Source: a virus
Length of the DNA stretch: 27,980 nt
IMG/VR virus record: IMGVR_UViG_3300003690_000127
Span: 1-27,980 of that record
Reading direction: 5' to 3' (one strand)
The notes beneath the pieces are model-generated. The model did not search any database, was not told where the DNA came from, and saw nothing but the letters and a program-made list of their open reading frames with translations. The translations under genes and the position numbers were made by a program. Positions 1,441-26,884 of the stretch are shown here, in pieces (positions within the stretch are counted from its first letter, which is position 1; every line of letters starts with the position of its first letter).

Positions 1441-2325
1441 ATGAGACATCTCCTATCTATAGAAGAGTATGATAAGGACAGTCTGACTACCTTGTTTAAT
1501 CTTGCTCAACATTATCAGAATGGTGGTCCTAATCGACAGTTGTTCTTTAATAGAGGTAAACCTACCAAGCTACTGGCTAATCTTTTCTACGAGCCGTCCA
1601 CCAGAACAAGCTCAAGCTTCTTTGCTGCCATGAAAAGATTAGGCTATGATGTTCTGCCAATTAATGGGGTACAATATTCCAGTGTCACCAAGGGAGAAAC
1701 CTTGGAAGACACGGTGCGAACTCTGGGATGTTATGTTGATGTCATAGCTCTGAGACATCCCGAGGTAGGGTCATCCCAGAGAGCTGCCCAGGTATCTACT
1801 GTTCCAATTATCAATGCAGGAGACGGGATAGGAGAACATCCTACCCAGACTCTCACCGATCTGTACACGATCTGGAAGAAGTTTGGCCGGATAGATAATC
1901 TTACTATAACTATGATGGGTGATCTGAAGAACGGTCGAACCGTACACAGTTTACTGAATATTCTAAGGCTCTTCAATGTTAAGATACAACTGGTCAGTCC
2001 TGACAATCTTGTAGCTCCCTTCCAGTATGCTCATGGGGTGAACATATATGCTTCAGGATATCTGACAAAGTTTGTTACAGGACAATCGGATGTTCTGTAC
2101 ATGACCAGAGTTCAGGAAGAAAGAGGTTCGATGGGTGAGTACGAATTGACTGAGAGAGACGTGGCTAACCTGAAGGATGATATGATTGTCCTCCATCCCT
2201 TCCCTCGTAATAAAGAAATACCTGTCTGGTTTGATAAAGATCCCAGAGCCTACTACTTCCGACAAATAGAAAATGGATTGTATGTCAGGATGGCCATACT
2301 CAGCGAGGTATTAAACAATGAATGA
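1441..2325 (+). CDS. pyrB: Aspartate carbamoyltransferase catalytic subunit (viral PyrB)
   Basis: This enzyme joins carbamoyl phosphate and L-aspartate to give N-carbamoyl-L-aspartate, the committed step of pyrimidine synthesis. The 294 residues cover both domains (E. coli PyrB has about 310). The carbamoyl-phosphate loop STRT is at 53-56 within FYEPSTRT. The 80s-loop lysine is K83 in KGETL. Further catalytic positions are R104-H-P, H132-P-T-Q135, R165 in DLKNGRTVHS, R222-V-Q224 and HPFPR at 251-255. The C-terminus carries DPRAYYFRQIENGLYVRM. All catalytic positions I can align by eye are kept. Variants are S57 after STRT (usually R), F61-region SFF for the usual SFE, and F253 for the usual Leu of HPLP. 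No pyrI regulatory gene is nearby, so it is probably an unregulated trimer. It lies between holin and terS and overlaps terS by 8 bases. Confidence 0.95.
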   Translation: MRHLLSIEEYDKDSLTTLFNLAQHYQNGGPNRQLFFNRGKPTKLLANLFYEPSTRTSSSFFAAMKRLGYDVLPINGVQYSSVTKGETLEDTVRTLGCYVDVIALRHPEVGSSQRAAQVSTVPIINAGDGIGEHPTQTLTDLYTIWKKFGRIDNLTITMMGDLKNGRTVHSLLNILRLFNVKIQLVSPDNLVAPFQYAHGVNIYASGYLTKFVTGQSDVLYMTRVQEERGSMGEYELTERDVANLKDDMIVLHPFPRNKEIPVWFDKDPRAYYFRQIENGLYVRMAILSEVLNNE

Positions 2326-21147: not shown

Positions 21148-21152
21148 TTCCT
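21148..21152 (-). promoter_or_regulatory. Shine-Dalgarno AGGAA supporting a GTG start
   Basis: The AGGAA overlaps the TAG stop of the fibre gene and lies 7 bases before the GTG at 21140. It makes that non-ATG start more likely than the next ATG (at 21116). Confidence 0.5.
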
Positions 21153-23445
21153 AACTATAAGCCTGTGTCATTACAGCTTGAATATTCTCTGCTGAATCAT
21201 CACTGGATACAGACAGTACAATATAATCTATTCGATCCACAGCCCCATTGGATGTTGTAAATGTGGGAGCCGTACCATCGATGAAATTCCAGCAAGCATT
21301 ATAAGCTACCGTACCACTACCACCAGACTGATAAAGGAATATACTTCCTGTCTGACCTTGAACTGCATTGATTGGTCGAGCCAGAGTATGTGCAGCAGTC
21401 ACGGTTGTAATCCAATTCTGAGCCGTAGCAAAATTCAGAGATACAGAAGCTACTCCATCAATTGCCGTGGTTGCTACAGCAGCCGCTGCTGACTTGCCAA
21501 CCTTGAGATTACCTTCCAGAGAAGTATTACCACTAACTCTGACAGTTCCCAGAAAGCCTGAATTCCCCGTGATAGTTACAGTACTAATAAGATTGGTTGC
21601 ACCCCCAACACTCAGAGTAGAAGCCAGACTGACAGCTCCTGCAATGGTTACTGTGGATGCCAAGTTAACCGCACCTCCAACACTCAGAGTAGAAGCTAGG
21701 CTGACGGCACCTGTAACACTTAGAGTTCCACCTATAGAAGTGTTACCACCTATGGCTACATTACCACTGACAGAGACATCATCTTTAAACGTACCGGCAC
21801 CCACCACTGTTACTGTAGATGCAAATACAGCAGCTCCTCCTACAGAAGCTGTACTTTGTAGATGAGCCGCACCTACCACTGTTACAGTACTAGCAAACGT
21901 AGCAGCTCCTCCCACAGAAGCTGTACTTTGTAAATGAGCCGCTCCAACTACTGTTACTGTAGATGCAAACGTCGCAGCTCCTCCCACAGAAGCCGTGCTT
22001 TGCAGATGAGCTGCTCCAACTACTGTTACTGTCGATCCAAAGTTAGCAGCACCTCCAACAGTCACAGTACTTTTAAGATGTGTAGCTCCAGCCAAGGTAG
22101 TAATACCAACTACATGAAGTGTTCCACCAATTGTAACATTACTAACCGATATATTACCACCCACGGCAGCACTAACACCTGTGAGATTAGTTCCATCTCC
22201 ATAGAATGCCGAGGCACAGACCTTTGCATTAGCTGCCTGTACATTAGCTCCTGCTATTGTAACAGTGCCTCCGATATTGACATTACCACTAACAGAGACA
22301 TCATCCTTGAATGTTCCTGCGCCTACAACTGTGACGGTGCTGCCAAATTGTGCAGCTCCTGCCACTGTAACAGTACTCAGTAAATTAGTTGCACCTCCAA
22401 CGCTGAGAGTAGAAGCTAGGCTTACTGCTCCTGTAACACTGAGTGTCCCTCCTATGGAAGTATTACCCCCTATAGCTACATTACCGCTAACCGATACATC
22501 ATCTTTGAATGTTCCAGCACCTACTACCGTAACTGTAGATACTAATTGAGTTGCACCAACAACTGATAGTATCCCACCTACATGAATATAACCAGATACG
22601 GAAACATTATCAACAATACCCACAGAAGCTTCCACACCTGTAAGATTTGAACCATCTCCGTAGAAAGCAGAAGCGCATACTCTGGCATTGGCAGCTTGTA
22701 CATTAGCTCCCACGATAGTTACTGTCCCACCAACTACCAGACCACCGCTTACAGAGACATCCCCATCGAAAGTAGCATTTCCAACTGCCATTAAAGTGCC
22801 ACCTATACATGCAGAGGTAGCTACATCCAGACGACCACTGACCGACACATCATTCTTGAACTCTGTCTTGGATGTGAATGTACCTGCTCCGGCTACTGCC
22901 AGAGTACCTCCCACAGATACATTACTTTTTAGTACGGCAGCTCCGACTACAGTGACAGTGCTGGCAAACGTGGCAGCTCCACCTACTGAAGCCGTACTTT
23001 GCAGATGAGCGGCACCAACTACGGTAACCGTGCTACCAAAGTTAGCCGCACCACCTACTGTGACTGTACTCTTGAGATGCGTGGCCCCGGCTAATGTGGC
23101 AACACCAGCTACATGTAAAGTCCCACCAATCGTTACATTACTCACAGAGATGTTACCTGCAATCGTGGCAGTCACCCCGGTAATATTCGAGCCGTCTCCG
23201 TAGAATGCACTGGCACATACCTTGTCATCCACATGGAGGTTACCATCCAGAGAAACCGCCCCTGATACTGCAAACGTACCGGCAACCTTCACTGCATTCG
23301 TAGCTAGTTGCAGAGCGGTATTAGTACCGTCTCCACTTTGCACATTCTTCAGAGAAGTATCAACACCAGTATTGGTGGTGGATGAGCTTACAAGAATAAC
23401 CTGCTTGTAAGTCTCTGATATTAGCTTACCTGTTAGGTCTGTCAT
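21151..23445 (-). CDS. Repeat-built tail fibre (β-helical), 764 aa
   Basis: The start is taken as the ATG at 23445, which overlaps the upstream TGA (ATGA); a TTG at 23457 in the same frame is less likely. After a short N-terminal cap, residues about 60-640 are made of Val/Gly/Ser/Thr/Ala-rich 12-residue rungs, for example VGGAATFASTVT and VVGAAHLQSTAS, often paired as 24-residue units. Three VCASAFYGDGxN(I/L)TGV insertions punctuate the shaft at regular places. The C-terminal about 115 residues (QNWITTVTAAHTLARPINAV onward) are non-repetitive and probably form the tip. The pattern predicts a long trimeric β-helix or β-prism fibre. The adjacent zinc-ribbon gene overlaps by ATGA. The same YGDG module occurs in the collar fibre at 16291-17382. 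Confidence 0.8.
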   Translation of the reverse strand: MTDLTGKLISETYKQVILVSSSTTNTGVDTSLKNVQSGDGTNTALQLATNAVKVAGTFAVSGAVSLDGNLHVDDKVCASAFYGDGSNITGVTATIAGNISVSNVTIGGTLHVAGVATLAGATHLKSTVTVGGAANFGSTVTVVGAAHLQSTASVGGAATFASTVTVVGAAVLKSNVSVGGTLAVAGAGTFTSKTEFKNDVSVSGRLDVATSACIGGTLMAVGNATFDGDVSVSGGLVVGGTVTIVGANVQAANARVCASAFYGDGSNLTGVEASVGIVDNVSVSGYIHVGGILSVVGATQLVSTVTVVGAGTFKDDVSVSGNVAIGGNTSIGGTLSVTGAVSLASTLSVGGATNLLSTVTVAGAAQFGSTVTVVGAGTFKDDVSVSGNVNIGGTVTIAGANVQAANAKVCASAFYGDGTNLTGVSAAVGGNISVSNVTIGGTLHVVGITTLAGATHLKSTVTVGGAANFGSTVTVVGAAHLQSTASVGGAATFASTVTVVGAAHLQSTASVGGAATFASTVTVVGAAHLQSTASVGGAAVFASTVTVVGAGTFKDDVSVSGNVAIGGNTSIGGTLSVTGAVSLASTLSVGGAVNLASTVTIAGAVSLASTLSVGGATNLISTVTITGNSGFLGTVRVSGNTSLEGNLKVGKSAAAAVATTAIDGVASVSLNFATAQNWITTVTAAHTLARPINAVQGQTGSIFLYQSGGSGTVAYNACWNFIDGTAPTFTTSNGAVDRIDYIVLSVSSDDSAENIQAVMTQAYS
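21600..23110. repeat. Degenerate in-frame repeats (36/72-base rungs, 720- and 999-base segmental copies) within the fibre gene
   Basis: A 72-base unit beginning GCAGCTCCTCC (plus strand) recurs at 21830, 21902 and 21974, exactly 72 bases apart. Larger blocks recur as well. The segment with AGTAGAAGCTAGG at 21688 returns at 22408, 720 bases away (240 codons). The segment with GCAGATGAGC at 22002 returns at 23001, 999 bases away (333 codons). Every spacing is a multiple of three, and the encoded residues are nearly identical while third positions differ, so these are protein-driven repeats. Confidence 0.8.
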
Positions 23446-23768
23446 ATTGTGTTCCAACTTCTGTTTGCATCATCCCATTTGGTTGTATGCTTTGTTTCCG
23501 CCAAGGTTGTTGGATTAATACTTATCCATGTTGCAACCTGATCCCACTTGACTCCTCTACCACCCAGATGATCTGACCTGGGATTATTGATGGCCGGATC
23601 GTCTCGTACATCCGGTATCTTATTTAGAGGACTATTCTTCAGGTCGTACTGACCTTCAAAGTCTTGCGGACAGACCAGCATACCATAACTATTCATACGC
23701 ATTACCCTGTGTGGATATACAAACCCACACGTATCACACACAGCTATGGCATTTCTATTACTTGCCAC
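23442..23768 (-). CDS. Zinc-ribbon-like small structural-region protein
   Basis: The 108-residue protein has an N-terminal AVCDTCGFVYPHRVM (residues 9-23) and MLVCPQDFEGQYDLKN (30-45). This resembles the rubredoxin-knuckle protein CxxCG...GlxVCxxCfD found near tail genes of many phages. Three Cys (C11, C14, C33) are present. The position normally holding the fourth Cys is Asp36, so metal binding would need Asp36 or His20, or is weakened. A conserved tail follows (LNKIPDVRDDPAINNPRSD). The start is GTG at 23768, overlapping the upstream stop by 11 bases. The end overlaps the fibre start by ATGA. It may bridge or fold fibre components, but its function is not known. Confidence 0.6.
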   Translation of the reverse strand: MASNRNAIAVCDTCGFVYPHRVMRMNSYGMLVCPQDFEGQYDLKNSPLNKIPDVRDDPAINNPRSDHLGGRGVKWDQVATWISINPTTLAETKHTTKWDDANRSWNTI

Positions 23769-24731: not shown

Positions 24732-25406
24732 TTAGATATATCCTAATCTGGGTACAACATGCATGGAAGCTCTTTCTCGATCTTCCTGCATAGCTCTGAA
24801 CAATATTTCTTCATAATTAGTTTTCAACATCGCTATCCTTTCAGGAGGAACACCAGGACGCTTCATTGACATATAATAAGATAGACCACAAGTCAGAGGT
24901 GGAAGGAATCTCTTAGGCATATTCGCATTCTGTTCAGCAGATTTATCTACATCCATTAACTCACTAATAATTTCCATCTTGAGAACATCTGTGGAGTTCT
25001 CAGGAATAGGCCAGACAGACATGGTAGGATTATCCATGCCTCTCCGAATAGAGTATTGCATGGGCCGACCCGTCTGAGTTTTATTTGGAATAAGAAGATA
25101 TTCCTCTGGAGATATACGAGTAAGTTGTATGTCTGTGTCATCTCGACCCAGAACAACTTCCAGAGCATCCACAGTTGAGGAGTCCAGACTATAGGCAGTA
25201 ACACTGGCAGCCACAGTTACACTGGAAACAGAAGTACTCCACAGAAGAACACCTCTGTTTTGCCAGTCCTTGAGCATGAGATTAATTGAGCGTCTGGCAG
25301 AAGCAGGTTCGTGACCTAGAGTATCTTCCCCTCCAATCATTTCCGTTGCTTCTTGTATAACCTCATCTATATCAAGATTAAAATTATATGTGGACGAAAC
25401 CGCCAT
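24732..25406 (-). CDS. Head-tail adaptor (podovirus gp4-like / tail tube A-like)
   Basis: The 224-residue protein begins with MAVSSTYNFNLDIDEVIQEA, then GHEPASARRSINLMLKDWQN and RGVLLW. This is the N-terminal signature of the adaptor family in marine and P22-like podoviruses (IxxALxxIGG...ARxxLNxxLxxWqxrGxxLW). A β segment follows (SSVTVAASVTAYSLDSSTVD, then VEVVL-like strands), then PEEYLLIPNKTQTGRPMQYS, WPIPENS and PLTCGLSYYMSMKRPGVPPE. Adaptors ring the portal and seat the nozzle. The start shares TAATG with the Cys-rich peptide's stop. Portal and capsid genes are probably upstream, outside the window. Confidence 0.75.
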   Translation of the reverse strand: MAVSSTYNFNLDIDEVIQEATEMIGGEDTLGHEPASARRSINLMLKDWQNRGVLLWSTSVSSVTVAASVTAYSLDSSTVDALEVVLGRDDTDIQLTRISPEEYLLIPNKTQTGRPMQYSIRRGMDNPTMSVWPIPENSTDVLKMEIISELMDVDKSAEQNANMPKRFLPPLTCGLSYYMSMKRPGVPPERIAMLKTNYEEILFRAMQEDRERASMHVVPRLGYI

Positions 25407-25525
25407 TACTCTTTACCAGTTCCCTGTTCTGGAGTTTTGCAAGAACAATCTATGCACTTACAATTATCACAATTTGTAGAATCACAGTGGCAATCATGAC
25501 CACAAACACACAATAGATTTTTCAT
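25406..25525 (-). CDS. Metallothionein-like Cys-rich peptide (39 aa)
   Basis: The product starts MKNLLCVCGHDCHCD and ends CKTPEQGTGKE. Nine of 39 residues are Cys, at 6, 8, 12, 14, 19, 22, 24, 27 and 29, in the pattern CxC-x3-CxC-x4-C-x2-CxC-x2-CxC. His10 and His13 lie near the first cluster. Such dense CxC spacing with no hydrophobic core is the hallmark of metallothioneins, which bind Zn(II), Cu(I) or Cd(II) thiolate clusters. Both ends share TAATG overlaps (25525 and 25406) with the adjoining genes, so a chance frame is unlikely. It lies next to the head-tail adaptor, an unexpected place. Alternatives are a small zinc-binding assembly factor or a disulfide-rich peptide. Metal binding is inferred from composition only. 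Confidence 0.65.
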   Translation of the reverse strand: MKNLLCVCGHDCHCDSTNCDNCKCIDCSCKTPEQGTGKE

Positions 25526-25686
25526 TATCGACCTACTTTCTTCTGAGCTTTTTGATGAGCATTCTTTAAAGTATCTCCTATTTTCATACGCTCACGCATA
25601 TATGACATATGTTTTGATGTATGTTTCTGGGAATGCTGTCTCAGAGCACTTCTCTGTCTTAATGTTAATGGTTTCATCTTAGCCAT
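25525..25686 (-). CDS. Small basic protein, 'TxRQxxxLxxHSxxHTxKHM' family (53 aa)
   Basis: The preferred start is the ATG at 25686 (MAKMKPLTLRQRSALRQHSQ), because the longer frame to 25767 would overlap the upstream gene by 68 bases. The product has LTLRQRSALRQHSQKHTSKH, then MSYMRERM and GDTLKNAHQKAQKKVG. This combination resembles a small conserved protein I associate with marine phages and some large environmental viruses. It is Lys/Arg/His-rich and helical, which suggests nucleic acid contact. Function is unknown. Its stop overlaps the Cys-rich peptide's start (TAATG at 25525). Confidence 0.65.
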   Translation of the reverse strand: MAKMKPLTLRQRSALRQHSQKHTSKHMSYMRERMKIGDTLKNAHQKAQKKVGR

Positions 25687-25699
25687 ACCAAGTGCTCGA

Positions 25700-26884
25700 T
25701 TAGCCCCCACGTAACTCCGCACGATGTCCACGTAAGGCAGCACGTTTACGAGTCTTGGGAGTAGCACGTCCTTTAGGTTTGGCTTTCTTCATACTCCTTC
25801 CAATTTGACCACCTTTCTTATCGTGTGTTACACCTCCTTGATCTCTATCTTTATCTGGAAAATCTATGGGCCTAGATTTAAATTCAACTTCTCCAAGAAA
25901 AGGAATATCTATCTTCCGAATGCCACCTTCCCAAAATCCAAGTTCTCCTTTTTCATCTCTCCCTTTAATAACTTTTGTTCCAGGAGCAGCATGTCCAAGC
26001 AAACCTCTACCAGAAAGTGTTTCTGGACGAGGATCTTTTTTATCAATATATTTTTGTTTTCGCTTTTTATCCTCTGGAGGTTTCTTGCTCTTTATTTTGG
26101 TAGTATATTTAGTTCCTTTCCAGTAGAACTCACCCGTATCTGGTTCTCCTGCCTTCATAGCCTTTGCTCTTTCCGTGGCATAGGCTGCATCAAATGAACC
26201 AGAATTATATCTTGTTATTCCATTAGCTACAGCACCACGGGGAAGAACTGTCTTCAGTTTAGCCGCCTTTACTATAGGTCTTTTATCTGATTCTGTTGCA
26301 GCAGATCCATTAGTCTTTGCTGGTTTTTTATCTTTCAGTAATGCCTGTTCCCGTGTTAGACTCAGACCGGGCAAAGCCTTCCGTTTAGCTCTCTCCTCTG
26401 CTCGCCTTGCAGCAGCAAAATCAGGCTTTCCCTTTCCAGTACTTAACCAAGCATAAAATCCACCAATTGTTGCAAAACCGGCAGCAGCTGCCATTGTTGC
26501 CTTCTTTTTCGGTGACACACCATTCCACCATTTCCTCGTTCCTCCCTTGGCAAAAGCTTCAAATGCCTTTGCTTGGGCCTCGGATGTGATAGGTACTCCA
26601 GATTGCTGACTAAGATCTCGCAATCTGTCTGCTTGCGCTTTCGCCTCTGGTGATAATGTCTTAGTAGGCTTACCAGAAGGAGATTTCCTTGGTTTAGGTG
26701 GATATAATTTTTCTGCTTGATCTTGTGTTAGGCGCCGTCTTCGAGCAGGTCTATCCAGAACTTCCTGTTTTGTTGCCTTTCTAGCACCACCTTTCCTTAA
26801 TGCCTCCGCTGCTTTTTCACCAGCTTCAATAAGTACTTTCTTATTATTCTTCACTATCCAATAGAAAACGGTTGCTGCTGCCAT
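25700..26884 (-). CDS. Basic Lys-rich hypothetical protein with one membrane-type segment (394 aa)
   Basis: The product begins MAAATVFYWIVKNNKKVLIE and has a strongly basic, Pro-rich region (about 40-75). A hydrophobic segment ATMAAAAGFATIGGFYAWLS lies at about 130-149. After about 225 there is SGSFDAAYATERAKAMKAGE then GEFYWKGTKYTTK, a short module I associate with marine phage proteins. The C-terminus has DKKGGQIGRSMKKAKPKGRA and then TRKRAALRGHRAELRGG, akin to the KKGG tags of the two smaller proteins downstream. Its function is unknown. Possibilities are a membrane-linked assembly factor or a DNA-binding head component. It follows the 26888-27544 gene after 3 bases. Confidence 0.6.
   Translation of the reverse strand: MAAATVFYWIVKNNKKVLIEAGEKAAEALRKGGARKATKQEVLDRPARRRRLTQDQAEKLYPPKPRKSPSGKPTKTLSPEAKAQADRLRDLSQQSGVPITSEAQAKAFEAFAKGGTRKWWNGVSPKKKATMAAAAGFATIGGFYAWLSTGKGKPDFAAARRAEERAKRKALPGLSLTREQALLKDKKPAKTNGSAATESDKRPIVKAAKLKTVLPRGAVANGITRYNSGSFDAAYATERAKAMKAGEPDTGEFYWKGTKYTTKIKSKKPPEDKKRKQKYIDKKDPRPETLSGRGLLGHAAPGTKVIKGRDEKGELGFWEGGIRKIDIPFLGEVEFKSRPIDFPDKDRDQGGVTHDKKGGQIGRSMKKAKPKGRATPKTRKRAALRGHRAELRGG

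Follow-up and report, generated by a model that had tools for sequence, protein, structure and literature searches.

An ORF directly ahead of the head-tail adaptor gene in this phage DNA is probably a genuine translated gene for a very small metallothionein-like protein that would act as a cytoplasmic zinc or copper buffer during infection. The evidence comes from the ORF and the geometry of its coupling to both neighbours, its conservation under purifying selection, a ligand set with Cys/His exchange, and restriction to phages within the searches made. From it we infer metal binding by the peptide of the window (the whole stretch of 27,980 nucleotides analysed here), together with its stoichiometry, cytoplasmic location, timing and buffering.

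The Cys-rich ORF and its relatives at the adaptor junction

The product of the Cys-rich ORF (Table 1), MKNLLCVCGHDCHCDSTNCDNCKCIDCSCKTPEQGTGKE, begins with an ATG codon and contains four CxC and two CxxC motifs and no aromatic residues. Cys accounts for 0.41% of the residues of the neighbouring proteins (32 of 7804), a frequency at which the binomial probability of at least 9 Cys in 38 residues is ~5e-14. A comparable ORF appeared in 0 of 300 order-1 random windows and in 1 of 300 order-2 random windows. By eye, the 39-aa peptide has no recognisable signal sequence. AlphaFold produced low-confidence models (pLDDT 57 and 65), as expected if the fold depends on metal, and the best Foldseek match had E=8.5; neither is informative about a zinc-finger-containing fold.

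Both ends of the ORF overlap a neighbouring gene. The downstream overlap reads ..GKE-TAATG-GCG, with the ATG serving as the adaptor start, and the upstream overlap reads ..VGR-TAATG-AAA. The small basic partner encoded upstream has the sequence features KPLTLRQ..HSQKHTSKHMSYM..KKVGR, which take the form KPLTLRQ..HSxKHTSKHM..KKVGR in the window lineage. For this 'HTxKHM' gene, the start positions of homologues favour the internal ATG (25683; MAKMKPLTL..) over the GTG at 25767 as the more probable start codon. The same basic gene and Cys-rich ORF are joined by an ATGA overlap in L089 and L093, loci in which no adaptor match was found; on the sequence comparison, the two genes are a conserved pair. 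The initial annotation had described nine Cys in 39 residues with repeated CxC, TAATG at both ends and a position just ahead of the head-tail adaptor, and all of this stands, the downstream gene matching the adaptor family above its cut-off.

Table 1. Positions of features in the window and the basis of each assignment
Feature	Position	Strand	Basis
Metallothionein-like ORF, 39 aa with 11 putative ligands (9 Cys, 2 His)	25406..25525	(-)	ORF reading, alignments
TAATG overlap of Cys-rich ORF stop and adaptor start, translational coupling	25404..25408	(-)	Sequence; same overlap in relatives
TAATG overlap of upstream basic ORF stop and Cys-rich ORF start	25523..25527	(-)	Sequence; kept in relatives
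Head-tail adaptor, SU10_adaptor (PF24175)	24732..25406	(-)	Pfam 34.5 bits, cut-off 27
Small basic His/Met-rich protein, directly upstream partner	25525..25683	(-)	phrog_31838, E=4e-4; longest ORF to 25767
108-aa protein with CDTCGF..CPQDF, possible zinc site	23442-23768		Weak treble-clef match, E=0.17
Long repeat protein, STVTVVGAAHLQS / TASVGGAA-type units, probably fibre	21151-23457		
Resembles phage-encoded aspartate carbamoyltransferase	1441-2325		By eye

With the adaptor as bait we recovered 80 IMG/VR loci, the 15 closest of which (L002-L016) have adaptors 86-97% identical. The initial annotation had named the lack of a shared Cys pattern here in related genomes as grounds for refutation; the result goes in its favour, since a Cys-rich ORF with 5-10 Cys lies directly before the adaptor in all 15. 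The TAATG overlaps are intact at both ends in 14 of the 15, the exception being L007. These closest relatives encode forms of 28-33 aa with 8-10 Cys, a form of 19 aa with 5 Cys, or the L007 fusion. The junction series is extended by L022 and L044 and by three loci that pattern scans brought in (L108, L110 and L113). L002 and L005 are one five-residue repeat unit apart, a difference by which two ligands are lost. The minimal version of 19 aa and 5 Cys, for example MVDKYCSRCKCKKCKCGKK, has TAATG at both ends in L010, L012, L014, L015, L032, L037 and L039. At L007:3861-4001 a deletion appears to have joined the beginning of the basic gene upstream with a peptide of 5 Cys, and L084 may resemble this fusion.

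Among seven distinct 33-aa alleles pN/pS is 0.147, 13 of the 21 variable sites fall at codon position 3, and 6 of the 10 invariant Cys codons vary between TGT and TGC. The Cys-rich ORF is under purifying selection, and the sequence evidence identifies it as a real, conserved phage gene. More distant adaptor relatives have other genes or nothing in its slot, and no convincing family member was found in 16 other adaptor-relative records of up to 56 kb (0/16); since relatives of ~56 kb lack it, the gene is accessory. In the L051-L058 group, two more short ORFs rich in Cys but different in pattern (L240:1504-1767, L051:3641-3799) lie upstream of the adaptor.

The gene for the 108-aa protein with the possible zinc site lies ~1.6 kb downstream of the Cys-rich ORF, and its relatives are found near 11 family loci; the protein is a possible metal client.

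Ligand columns, genomic contexts and database searches

DNA-pattern scans of IMG/VR viral contigs, together with a pseudoazurin bait, yielded at least 117 distinct family sequences on contigs as long as 244 kb. The ligand columns run in the order C, C, [H/C], C, H, C, C, C, C, C, [C/H], and alignments A2 and A3 conform to the signature C-x(1,2)-C-x-[HC]-x-C-H-C-x(3,4)-C-x(n)-C-x(1-5)-C-x2-C-x-[CH]. In A3 (33 members) the eleven columns hold Cys or His except for one Asp (L169) and the shortened L002, which is without two ligands, and Cys outside these columns amounts to 6 of 1096 residues. In A4 (36 members) all eleven ligands are retained and Cys elsewhere is 0 of 1324. Each search pattern preset some core positions; the same Cys/His rule nevertheless governs the columns that a pattern left free and the members recovered by way of the adaptor and pseudoazurin.

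The sole columns in which His and Cys swap are ligand 3 (in A3, 20 His and 12 Cys) and ligand 11 (4 His and 29 Cys), and an invariant His sits between two Cys of the set. Exchange at exactly two columns fits putative metal ligands and not partners in disulfides, and it is the strongest argument from sequence for metal coordination. The metallothionein-like character proposed at the outset is borne out by the Cys-rich composition and the eleven conserved Cys/His columns. Ligand number varies, the 28-aa form having 9 ligands and the 19-aa form 5 Cys. An NDV motif, included in the pattern of a later scan and absent from the patterns of the earlier searches in which it was first found, lies between ligands 8 and 9, and many members end in a DIPxSFT-type tail.

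Family members occupy the head-tail adaptor junction (the window lineage), the T4-type regA/gp62/gp43 module, positions beside lysozyme and positions downstream of pseudoazurin. The neighbours among at least 86 pattern-found loci include a lysozyme cluster (33; named from PF00959 in L149, the cluster representative itself having no Pfam match), HSP20 (22), a gp43-like DNA polymerase (21), RegA (PF01818; 19), the clamp loader gp62 (PF16790; 14), an Fe-S carrier (PF01521; 12) and pseudoazurin (1). A search for the T4 capsid family PF07068 gave no match anywhere, the controls included, and its result was set aside. Fe-S carriers near members are encoded at L149:5108-5389 (PF01521) and L136:6863-7177 (also NifU-like, PF01106) and in the cluster represented by L283. 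In another phage contig, a ring-hydroxylating oxygenase alpha-subunit domain (PF00848; L106:1706-2815) is encoded upstream of a family member.

A family member lies just downstream in 20 of 80 phage pseudoazurin loci, with 67-118 nt between the pseudoazurin stop and the member start (15 gaps measured) and with clear Shine-Dalgarno sites. The upstream gene encodes a pseudoazurin-like blue copper protein (PF00127; L147:7609-8037, L163, L164, L167, L175, L228 and others), and for these cupredoxins the NCBIfam pseudoazurin model scores best, just under its cut-off. In the reciprocal test, pseudoazurin was upstream in 1 of the 65 pattern-found loci with enough upstream sequence, among the matches listed. 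Because this reverse association is weak, a shared insertion hotspot accounts for the link as well as a copper pathway does, and the link may reflect such a hotspot only. A copper-specific function, suggested by the pseudoazurin neighbours, was accordingly not adopted as the main claim.

No member tested had a convincing sequence match in Pfam, NCBIfam, PHROG or PDB. One pattern, from a set that is not exhaustive, had 35 matching stretches in viral contigs vs 1, a spurious one, across genomes of 84,980 bacterial and archaeal species; the single bacterial match, in Pelomonas (L152), was rejected as a long unrelated ORF. A search of 398 genomes of one phylum gave no convincing family member, and three weak matches there were rejected as fragments or frames without the family pattern. 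Judged from these non-exhaustive pattern scans, the family appears to be phage-restricted within the searches made. When 50,697 phage records were queried by tblastn with member sequences (one query being a self-composed consensus-like sequence), the matches were only weak or due to chance, and no cultured phage among these records had a clear intact copy.

An unannotated Cys-rich frame with the family core is present at positions 29083-29160 of the Pelagibacter (SAR11) isolate phage HTVC023P (MN698239.1) and at L129:5084-5161. The HTVC023P frame encodes CFECHHDCHCDKICPKCSCYTC, and the adaptor of this phage is 36.7% identical to the window adaptor. Unlike the window ORF, the frame follows gp44, is missing the last ligand and has no clear canonical start codon outside gp44; its tblastn match has an E of only 0.3. 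The initial annotation had judged the gene short enough for standard callers to miss, which fits both its absence from every family library and the unannotated HTVC023P frame. A search of the open literature, subscription literature not being covered, found no paper on phage-encoded metallothioneins.

Proposed function and rival explanations

The eleven Cys/His side chains would wrap a single cluster of ~4 Zn(II) or of more Cu(I); the ligand count predicts an M4 cluster in the 11-ligand form and perhaps an M3 cluster in the 9-ligand one, and the sequence does not discriminate between zinc and copper. Since it has no recognisable signal sequence, the peptide probably acts in the host cytoplasm during infection. 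There its roles would be to take up zinc or copper present in surplus or freed as the phage takes over the cell, to curb mismetallation and thiol damage, and to keep a store of exchangeable metal on which metalloproteins of phage and host could draw. Its synthesis would be coupled translationally to that of the upstream basic protein and the downstream adaptor, and for this reason is probably late. A cytoplasmic buffer is the best single explanation because it accommodates the metallothionein-like composition, the missing signal sequence and the replication and late module neighbours.

A metallothionein would not usually show so rigid a ligand set and NDV motif, which makes a structural, zinc-finger-like zinc microprotein the main rival. 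Such a protein would hold fixed metals and bind a host or phage partner (e.g. RNA polymerase, RNA or a replication protein) with no buffering; the DIPxSFT-type tail of many members could be a docking motif, and the T4-type members are placed in a replication module. We nevertheless consider this unlikely, as Cys makes up about 1/5 to 1/3 of the residues, far above a zinc finger, the number of ligands differs between the 28-aa, 9-ligand and 19-aa, 5-Cys forms, and zinc-finger families and solved structures gave no match. A role in the virion, either carrying metal or helping head and tail to join, would suit the window lineage, where the ORF is coupled to the adaptor and the small basic gene, and loading of virion proteins or carriage in the particle had been among the initial suggestions. 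These suggestions lose ground because the family occurs in several places besides the adaptor junction: most members found lie away from it (T4 replication module, lysozyme, pseudoazurin, Fe-S carrier), and at the junction itself many adaptor relatives carry a different gene or no gene. This spread of genomic contexts favours intracellular buffering and leaves a virion role quite improbable.

The high Cys content would also be compatible with a thiol or redox buffer that works through disulfides and not metals, but the swap between Cys and His at 2 of the 11 positions and the invariant His between two Cys suit metal coordination, and we give this reading even less credence than a virion role. 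The ORF is short and annotated in no library, as a chance frame without a product would be; such a frame is contradicted by the conservation results (purifying selection, conserved coupling, at least 117 distinct family members), as well as by the Shine-Dalgarno sites of other members and the chance tests, and is scarcely credible.

With metal buffering as the preferred reading, the family's spread among uncultivated phages suggests metal management inside infected cells. A broader proposal, which we hold only tentatively, is that uncultivated phages of several lineages, T4-type included, carry a phage-specific metallothionein, in some genomes directly after pseudoazurin or near an Fe-S carrier gene, and may thereby take charge of zinc and copper in the cells they infect, which would be a previously undescribed form of phage metal takeover. 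If metal is bound, infection would directly and testably affect trace-metal handling in infected cells. The family is absent from Pfam, NCBIfam and PHROGs yet present in several phage lineages, and its simple signature makes it recognisable.

Comparison with known metallothioneins

The window peptide has the sequence traits of the metallothionein class: it is small and very Cys-rich, with CxC and CxxC motifs and no aromatics, and its putative Cys/His ligand positions are conserved across homologues in the 33- and 36-member alignments. Short fungal copper metallothioneins and the mycobacterial MymT, which bind copper, resemble the phage family as short chains with repeated CxC; their spacing differs, and the invariant central His is a feature of the phage family. 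The ligand spacing of SmtA, a cyanobacterial metallothionein, also differs from that of the phage family. Metallothio_5 (PF02067) gave one weak match, to the L136 type (E=0.011, 16.3 bits against a curated cut-off of 25 bits), which likely reflects composition. Like SmtA and BmtA (Metallothio_Pro, PDB 1JJD), the phage proteins are small, Cys-rich and prokaryotic, with CxC/CxxC and His ligands; unlike them they are phage-encoded, show no sequence or profile match to them and are mostly 28-61 aa long, vs 56 aa for SmtA/BmtA. The core of SmtA is Zn4Cys9His2, and the 9 Cys and 2 His of the window peptide equal this ligand count (PMC10119931).
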